Shown here: positions 5,342 through 21,719 of the stretch, piece by piece | Layout: each line of letters begins with the position of its first letter | Numbering within the stretch: position 1 is the stretch's first letter | Source: Sipunculus nudus | Taxonomy: Eukaryota > Annelida > Sipuncula > Golfingiida > Sipunculidae | Assembly: GCA_026874595.1 (NCBI GenBank) | Contig: CM049309.1 | Coordinates: 10,379,076 to 10,443,075, forward strand | Length of the DNA stretch: 64,000 nucleotides | Direction: 5' to 3' | Program-made: the position numbers and the translations under genes | The notes under the pieces: generated by a model | Told to the model about the DNA's origin: nothing | The model's input: the letters and a program-made list of their open reading frames with translations, nothing else | Database searches by the model: none

Positions 5342-5372
5342 GTTCGGTCCTCTTTTATGTCACTCCGTAATA
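5342..5372 (-). repeat. LTR 3 of miniature retrotransposon, truncated
   Basis: The minus strand reads ttacggagtgacataaaag and then gaggaccgaac, matching the first 31 bases of the other LTRs. The remaining roughly 125 bases are missing at the junction with family A sequence. Immediately before it on the minus strand is gagggggtg (5381-5373), a short purine-rich tract in the place expected of a polypurine tract. Confidence 0.75.
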
Positions 5373-5470
5373 CACCCCCTCATAAGAGCGTTCTGCTATC
5401 AGAACAAGACTAATTATCCCAGGAGTCACACTTCCCTGGGCCACAAAGTTTACCGTCTCGTTAGACGAGT

Positions 5471-5622
5471 TGTTACGAAGACAAATTACTCAGGGGAAAA
5501 TTCTTGGCCGATCCGGGATTCGAACCCATAATTGTGGCGCACAAGTCCTGCGTACCAACCGCTTCGCTAGCAAAGCAAGCTTCACTAGCGAAACAGTTCG
5601 GTCCGCTTTTATGTCACCCCGT

Positions 5623-5626
<4 letters not shown>
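5471..5626 (-). repeat. LTR 2 of miniature retrotransposon (shared middle LTR)
   Basis: 156 bases, same ends as LTR 1 and clearly homologous throughout. On the minus strand it has a perfect A box tagcgaagcgg (5569-5559), 32 intervening bases, and a perfect B box ggttcgaatcc (5526-5516). The segment around ggacttgtgcgcc resembles a tRNA anticodon arm. The TATA position reads cataaaagc (5613-5605). It is followed on the minus strand by ctcgtct and gacggtaaacttt, a decayed version of the primer-site region next to LTR 1. Confidence 0.82.

Positions 5627-5674
<48 letters not shown>
5627..5674. repeat. (AT)n inside the LTR element
   Basis: A pure AT run of about 48 bases fills the end of the first internal region and abuts the middle LTR. 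It replaces the position where a purine tract would be expected. Confidence 0.95.
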
Positions 5675-5676
<2 letters not shown>

Positions 5677-5706
5677 GCACTGTAAGTTTACTGTAAGTTT
5701 ACCGTC

Positions 5707-5724
5707 ATCCCGGACGAGCCCCCA
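5707..5724 (-). promoter_or_regulatory. Primer binding site for tRNA-Pro
   Basis: On the minus strand, TGGGGGCTCGTCCGGGAT lies three bases after the LTR end. It is an 18-base complement of the 3' end of tRNA-Pro, the same primer site used by murine gammaretroviruses (established knowledge). It fixes the element's orientation and shows that the flanking repeat is a true LTR rather than a SINE or MITE. Confidence 0.88.
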
Positions 5725-5727
5725 TTT

Positions 5728-5883
5728 TGTTACGAAGACATTGCTCAGGGGAAAGCATAGGGCCGATCCCGGTTTCGAACCCATATCGGTGGCGCACAAG
5801 TCCGGTGTACCTACCGCTTCGCAAGAAAAGCAAGCTTCACTAGCGAGACAGTTCGGTCCGCTTTTATATGTCACCCCGTAACA
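5728..5883 (-). repeat. LTR 1 of miniature retrotransposon (5' LTR)
   Basis: 156 bases with TG...CA ends inside 7-base inverted termini (TGTTACG/CGTAACA). Reading the minus strand, a TATA-like box catataaaag (5870-5861) lies near the LTR start. A tRNA-like A box ttgcgaagcgg (5824-5814) and a perfect B box ggttcgaaacc (5781-5771) follow at tRNA-like spacing. The A box fits the eukaryotic consensus except at its second position. The LTR therefore carries both Pol II-type and Pol III-type promoter signals. Function is inferred. Confidence 0.8.
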
Positions 5884-21580: not shown

Positions 21581-21584
21581 TTAT

Positions 21585-21719
21585 TGTTAGGGAATGCGTA
21601 TAAAAGCGGACCGAACTGTCTCGCTAGTGAATCGTGTTTTTTTCTAGTGAATCGGTTGGATGTGTGCGCCACCTACATGGGTTCGAATATTTTCCCCTGA
21701 GCAAAATTTCCACGTAACA
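21585..21719 (+). repeat. Solo LTR of the miniature retrotransposon family
   Basis: 135 bases from tgttagg to cgtaaca, in the opposite orientation to the 5.3-5.9 kb array. It keeps a strong TATA box gtataaaagcgg, then accgaactgtctcgctagtg and gcgccac, and the first half of the B box (gggttcgaat), but about 20 bases after the B box are deleted, which breaks it. The end cccctgagcaaa is kept. No primer site or internal region follows, so it is a solo LTR. It is flanked on both sides by (AT)n. Confidence 0.78.

Follow-up and report, generated by a model that had tools for sequence, protein, structure and literature searches.

A family of short non-coding LTR elements with tRNA-like promoter boxes, assigned to the Helenus-type TRIMs

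The window analysed here, a stretch of 64,000 nucleotides, carries on its minus strand at positions 5342-5883 a cluster of short repeats with LTR-like ends, a tRNA-Pro primer site and tRNA-like promoter boxes. A preliminary description of this DNA presented the cluster as a single miniature LTR retrotransposon and named no described animal equivalent, which raises the questions of what kind of element it is, whether one element or several lie at the locus, and which polymerase would transcribe it. The comparisons reported below indicate, with high confidence, that the family is a Helenus-type TRIM, i.e. a non-coding LTR retrotransposon with a tRNA-derived promoter in its LTR.

Structure of the locus and of its family

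The features read at the locus, and a further LTR found elsewhere in the window, are the following.

5728..5883, minus strand: LTR A, 156 bp, read from the sequence as the 5' LTR of the first segment
5814-5824, minus strand: imperfect A-box equivalent of LTR A, TTGCGAAGCGG, off consensus
5771-5781, minus strand: perfect B box of LTR A
5707..5724, minus strand: primer binding site (PBS) TGGGGGCTCGTCCGGGAT, 18 nt, 3 nt from LTR A, exact complement of tRNA-Pro
5627..5727, minus strand: internal region 1, cut short, consisting of the PBS end and then a (TA)n run
5627-5674, minus strand: (TA)n run replacing the rest of internal region 1 and the purine tract (PPT)
5471..5626, minus strand: LTR B, the middle LTR, 156 bp, of a subfamily other than that of LTR A
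5606..5612, minus strand: TATA-like ATAAAAG of LTR B, LTR position 15-21
5559..5569, minus strand: A box of LTR B, TAGCGAAGCGG, LTR position 58, perfect match to TRGYNNARNNG
5516..5526, minus strand: B box of LTR B, GGTTCGAATCC, LTR position 101, perfect match to GGTTCGANNCC
5373..5470, minus strand: internal region 2, 98 bp, having lost its PBS core by deletion
5373-5384, minus strand: PPT of internal region 2, TATGAGGGGGTG, kept and adjoining LTR C
5342..5372, minus strand: LTR C, truncated, first 31 nt only
21584..21719, plus strand: decayed LTR belonging to this family, with AT-rich flanks, 77% identity over its first part

On the minus strand the order is LTR A, an AAA spacer, the PBS, internal region 1, LTR B, internal region 2 and LTR C. 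Most of the parts first noticed are confirmed: the two 156-bp LTRs with TGTTACG...CGTAACA ends, the tRNA-Pro primer site lying 3 nt off one of them, the purine tract that adjoins the truncated third LTR, and in the middle LTR the TATA-like motif and two perfect boxes (32 nt between them, 43 nt from the start of A to the start of B). The claim that both boxes occur in each LTR stands for LTR B and for the B box of LTR A, while the A-box equivalent of LTR A breaks the consensus. Those reading frames at the locus that exceed 130 codons all pass through the (TA)n stretch, and no target duplication is readable at the window copy. Judged by its letters, the LTR at 21584..21719 is an older relic of the family of LTRs A and B.

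The genome searched comprises 1.43 Gb, contains the window and was read, from its Toll-like receptor and HSP70 genes, as that of an animal, probably a mollusc; no match of a Toll-like receptor frame exceeded 37% identity, a Mytilus protein being the best one with a name, and HSP70 was not discriminating. A search with the LTR gave 44 matches, the best 40 of 1843 candidates having been scored, and a search with the internal region gave 40 matches (best 40 of 1156 candidates scored). The 60 loci analysed, which encompass 30 of the 44 and 30 of the 40 matches, lean toward well-kept copies, and sampling of the best 40 does not yield a copy total. After merging of overlaps they comprise 71 chains, of which 27 have one LTR, 38 have two and six have three or four, paired LTRs being found in 44 of the 71. 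Fifty unique LTR-internal-LTR pairs were obtained from the 60 loci, with 117-121 bp between the LTRs in 37 of them. The family element is non-coding and about 430 bp long, with a 156-bp LTR, an internal region of about 119 bp and, in the 60 loci, TAAGAGGGGGTG as the usual PPT; at least eight of the last 12 nt before the 3' LTR are purines in 45 of the 50 pairs. Two exact patterns searched in viral contigs gave no match each.

Only copies with two complete outer ends, i.e. 12 one-LTR copies, 30 two-LTR copies and four longer chains, were scored for target duplications. Exact 4-bp duplications flank 20 of the 30 two-LTR copies, three of the four chains of three or four LTRs (at their outermost ends) and two of five solo LTRs, and none of the seven copies with one LTR plus a PBS or PPT; counted by adjacent LTR pair, they are found in 19 of 40 with complete ends. 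Among 41 copies, a set which includes the seven copies with one LTR plus a PBS or PPT and omits the five solo LTRs, 23 have a 4-bp duplication, compared to a mean of 1.5 and a largest value of seven in 2000 shuffles of the right flanks. Duplications of 5 bp are absent from all 46 copies with complete outer ends, and 6-bp matches occur in two of the 30 two-LTR copies, which is the number expected from two copies flanked by long AT repeats. Such 4-bp duplications are marks of integrase-made insertions.

These features also bear on whether the repeat is an LTR element at all. The tRNA-like boxes, the inverted 7-nt ends (TGTTACG/CGTAACA) and the single LTR in 27 of the 71 chains would suit a SINE or a MITE with short inverted ends. 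SINEs have no LTRs, insert by target priming and leave duplications of variable length, whereas the present family has paired LTRs in most chains, a PBS to the host tRNA-Pro, a PPT, and duplications of 4 bp in two-thirds of the complete two-LTR copies. Both readings were rejected on the LTR pairs and the 4-bp duplications, and we regard them as highly improbable. The checks proposed beforehand gave results in line with an LTR element: of 29 distinct loci that had been selected through the LTR only, 21 have a second LTR adjoining the first, the target duplications of the sampled copies are of 4 bp, and the A and B boxes are usually kept in the sampled copies, these checks covering the best-matching 40 of 1843 candidates.

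The single element proposed at 5342-5883 fares less well than the family. Seven of 11 subfamily-diagnostic sites distinguish LTR A from LTR B, whereas 19 duplication-bearing pairs elsewhere show differences in 31 of 183 site comparisons. Furthermore, internal region 1 has a PBS and no PPT, a (TA)n run standing between LTR A and LTR B, while internal region 2 has a PPT, lacks the PBS core and carries the other PBS type. Given this discordance and the missing PPT and PBS core, the primer site and purine tract that had been combined into one element are considered to stem from different units. In addition, among 86 LTRs elsewhere there are 39 that resemble LTR A more closely than LTR B does. A single true element, its LTRs merely diverged with age, would agree with the 90.8% identity of LTRs A and B (ungapped columns), which is close to the mean of 0.905 for 26 two-LTR copies, and with the fact that the neighbour is the nearest LTR in just four of 15 duplication-bearing pairs; the diagnostic sites make this quite unlikely. 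On their comparison a single intact element was rejected with good confidence, and a nearest-neighbour test of LTR partners was set aside as uninformative because duplication-bearing pairs often fail it. Since the LTRs are discordant at four or more diagnostic sites in five of the 19 duplication-bearing pairs as well, the inference of two units is good rather than certain. The window copy is probably either a chain of three LTRs that has decayed or a pair of copies that abut and belong to different subfamilies, and the remains at the locus most likely represent two copies. The notion of an animal TRIM with a tRNA-like promoter region in its LTR is supported for the family, with its A and B boxes, tRNA-Pro PBS, PPT and 4-bp duplications, and is not supported for the window copy as one element.

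Five duplication-bearing copies (L022, L043, L045, L011 and L028) have two LTRs from different subfamilies. As LTR replication is expected to yield alike LTRs, these mixed pairs are likely due to conversion after insertion or to chance duplications, those of L011 and L028 being ATAT.

Relationship to described TRIMs

In the part of Kojima 2024 (PMC10886601) drawn on here, the name Helenus is given to TRIMs whose LTR contains a Pol III promoter of tRNA origin; they are reported from fungi, from animals including bivalves and from one plant, and grouped with Cassandra and Ajax as TRIMp3. The same part gives a length of 311-1263 bp, tandem arrays in one family and, for the animal members, 4-bp duplications with Gypsy as the suggested helper; the bivalve families use tRNA-Pro among other primers. 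Pol III transcription is proposed there and unvalidated for Helenus, Cassandra alone being called validated.

The present family resembles Helenus, as characterized in those sections, in being a short two-LTR TRIM without coding capacity whose length of about 430 bp falls within the published range, in carrying A and B boxes within a tRNA-derived region of the LTR, in having a PBS for a tRNA 3' end just after the 5' LTR and a PPT before the 3' LTR, and in the 4-bp duplications shared with the animal members. It differs in the A box, for which the published form is TRGCY and that of the window family TAGCG, one position off. The match to the class, as far as the sections used go, rests on structural features and not on the letters of the published consensus sequences. 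Helenus having been described in animals already (Kojima 2024, PMC10886601), the implied novelty of the element kind is unsupported; by the published outline of the class, the window family is a member of it and not a new kind of element. In the literature searched, the name Helenus in an LTR context was found only in Kojima 2024 (PMC10886601), and TRIMp3 appeared elsewhere in work unrelated by title.

Another short element, the bivalve biv-TRIM, has, according to the portion of Satovic 2019 used here (PMC6934838), repeats of 202-218 bp, an inner domain of 77-80 bp, a PPT that is mostly GGGGAGA and no clear PBS. The window family shares with it tandem LTR-internal-LTR chains and solo LTRs, and departs from it in its 156-bp LTR, its internal region of about 119 bp, its PPT AAGAGGGGGTG and its tRNA-Pro PBS, the sizes lying outside those published; as judged from that portion, biv-TRIM is a different family. 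In some cockle biv-TRIMs the left LTR is reported in the same portion to differ systematically from the right one (PMC6934838), and in the window family none of 11 sites differs significantly between left and right (smallest p 0.19). Cassandra of plants and Ajax of nemerteans likewise have a Pol III-type promoter inside a TRIM LTR, which in the account consulted is derived from 5S rRNA, in contrast to the window family: the 5S model matched neither the window stretch nor seven loci, and a 5S-type promoter was rejected for these stretches.

Promoter signals in the LTR

Among 40 LTRs found via the internal region (two of an original 42 were dropped as common to the other set), a strict-consensus A box occurs anywhere in the LTR in 32 and a B box in 26, compared to 7% and 0.1% of shuffled LTRs. 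Both boxes are present in 20 of the 40, and in 18 of these 20 their starts are 43 nt apart, a spacing that fits an intronless tRNA gene. A TATA-like motif is found in 37 of 48 and in 25 of 40 LTRs of the two sets, nearly always at position 14-17. LTR positions 58-119 align to the body of a host tRNA-Gln gene with a score reached by none of 300 shuffles, while two of 300 shuffles reach the score of the alignment to the host tRNA-Pro and nine of 300 that to a tRNA-Lys sequence. No tRNA gene was detected in the window by ARAGORN and the Rfam tRNA model matched neither the window stretch nor seven loci; a tRNA gene inside the LTR was accordingly rejected for the stretches searched.

The conservation of the boxes (0.925 for A and 0.920 for B) is no decisive argument, lying slightly above that of the whole LTR (0.903), the two ranking 39th and 54th of 146 windows. 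In 88 LTRs, common variants occur at 19 of the 140 positions outside the fixed part of the boxes and at none of its 16 positions, and both free positions of the B box vary. When CpG sites are set aside, the conservation of the boxes exceeds that of the remainder, with a permutation p of 0.037 that is uncorrected and one of several comparisons. The pattern of variants at the box positions lends modest support to a function of these sequences.

Pol III transcription from tRNA-type promoters starts about 10-18 nt before the A box, and a TATA box 25-30 nt upstream of the start is also compatible with Pol III. Both signals in the LTR therefore point to one start, and a putative Pol III start may be placed at LTR position 40-48. 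In 72 of 88 LTRs a run of at least four T follows the B box, and in 54 of 88 such a run lies within LTR positions 45-111; at either place Pol III could stop early, so that a full-length RNA would need read-through of the first LTR. A like need would follow for Cassandra, whose transcript, in the part of Kojima 2024 referred to above (PMC10886601), starts and stops inside its two 5S-bearing LTRs.

These signals may also be read as those of a conventional TRIM transcribed by Pol II from the LTR TATA (ATAAAAG), the boxes being a passenger from an old SINE insertion; the element would be of the same type as in the Helenus-type reading and only the polymerase would differ. The frequency of the TATA-like motif in both LTR sets would suit Pol II and would put a start near position 45, the conservation of the boxes is barely above the LTR mean, and the T-runs could stop Pol III. 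The same TATA spacing suits Pol III, however, the spacing of the boxes is that of an intronless tRNA gene, and the fixed box positions are free of common variants. Moreover, AATAAA is found in none of 88 LTRs and ATTAAA in four, unlike the LTR of the Gypsy element described below, which has one AATAAA. Taken together, this makes transcription by Pol II rather unlikely, while the family LTRs are reasonably likely to be transcribed by Pol III, judging from the boxes, their spacing and their variants.

Primer, candidate helper and proposed life cycle

The PBS is exactly complementary to host tRNA-Pro-TGG genes at their 3' end with CCA added. A pattern of CANNN followed by the 18-nt PBS occurs at 202 sites in the genome and the reversed pattern at none, which, like the 44 LTR matches, speaks against a chance arrangement. 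These sites are not all TRIMs, at least three being coding Gypsy copies; of four fetched sites with unusual spacers, three belong to the coding Gypsy element. In the sampled junctions, a count that keeps only junctions with GGGG and leaves overlapping loci unmerged, all 18 nt are matched in five of 45 and the first 13 nt in 32 of 45. The commonest PBS form continues as AACGTGAC past the first 13 nt, and the window copy belongs to the smaller full-match set. Over 18 nt, three or fewer mismatches are found in nine of 50 pairs, the commonest value being four. The tRNA-Pro genes themselves are arranged in arrays (C14:19081274-19154855 and C5:41625442-41776451), the primer tRNA thus being itself amplified in this genome; in the C14 array the spacing is about 3.6 kb, with a tRNA-Gln gene inside the unit in the two units examined.

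The coding Gypsy element (L145-L147) has a 3-nt spacer, TTT, followed by the same 18-nt PBS, and its copies are 97-99% identical over the stretches compared. It has a 382-aa frame, without a Pfam match when tested in L145, which is called gag-like by position, and a second frame in L145 with a MYND finger and a below-cutoff match to aspartic protease. Downstream of L145 (L151) an integrase core and an H2C2 domain are found, integrase being found in this one copy, while in the second copy the stretch after L146 (L152) lacks both a frame of 100 codons and a match to the LTR; no 3' LTR end and no target duplication were found for that element. From L146 and L151 the Gypsy LTR appears to follow a GTGGGGGGAGAG tract, its first letters being TGTAACGG and its last GGGGTAACA, with tips of TGTAACGG...GTAACA. 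A comparison of 2.7-kb 5' pieces with the TRIM internal region gave 19 nt in common at the PBS and nothing else above chance. The same primer, the same spacer length and the similar LTR tips make this element a candidate helper, and it is possible, at somewhat less than even chances, that Gypsy elements of this type mobilize the TRIM in trans.

A life cycle may be proposed from the parts observed directly, namely the LTRs, PBS, PPT, 4-bp duplications, copy structure and boxes, and a coding Gypsy with the same PBS. TFIIIC would bind the A and B boxes and Pol III would start at about LTR position 40-48, read through the T-run of the 5' LTR, cross the internal region and stop in the 3' LTR. Synthesis of the minus strand would be primed at the PBS by the tRNA-Pro and that of the plus strand by the purine tract, and an autonomous Gypsy with the same tRNA-Pro PBS would supply reverse transcriptase and integrase, giving rise to the 4-bp target duplications. 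Of these steps we infer the use of Pol III, its start and stop points and the identity of the helper.

Pol III promoters within LTRs blur the division between SINEs, which are transcribed by Pol III and driven by LINEs, and LTR elements, which are transcribed by Pol II and self-driven. As many copies, a primer match to a host tRNA and a coding candidate helper occur in one genome, both the use of Pol III and the dependence on a helper are testable directly. The most far-reaching reading is that of a working animal TRIMp3 with a Pol III-transcribed LTR of TATA plus A and B boxes, present in probably hundreds of copies or more and moved in trans by the MYND-finger Gypsy, in a host whose lineage may not be among those given for Helenus. 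As a whole it is doubtful. If true, matching of primer and integrase site alone would suffice for mobilization in trans, as the Gypsy shares little with the TRIM apart from the tips of the LTR and the site for the tRNA-Pro primer.

Some further observations concern the assembly. Near-identical genes for COX1 (nine matches) and DnaK (ten matches) lie on several of the contigs C60-C90, of which two with COX1 and one DnaK were inspected. Ten long COX1 matches are on small contigs and the two inspected both read as bacterial, the closest COX1 relatives kept being 58% identical; contig C123 presumably represents another bacterium, from its gene names. The assembly seems to hold bacterial contigs (C60-C90 and C123), and C60-C90 look as though one bacterium were represented by several strains or copies. 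A search for the TIR domain gave 150 matches, the best 150 of 299 candidates having been scored, many of which lie in open frames of 700-1160 aa, and these matches represent a large set of Toll-like receptors.
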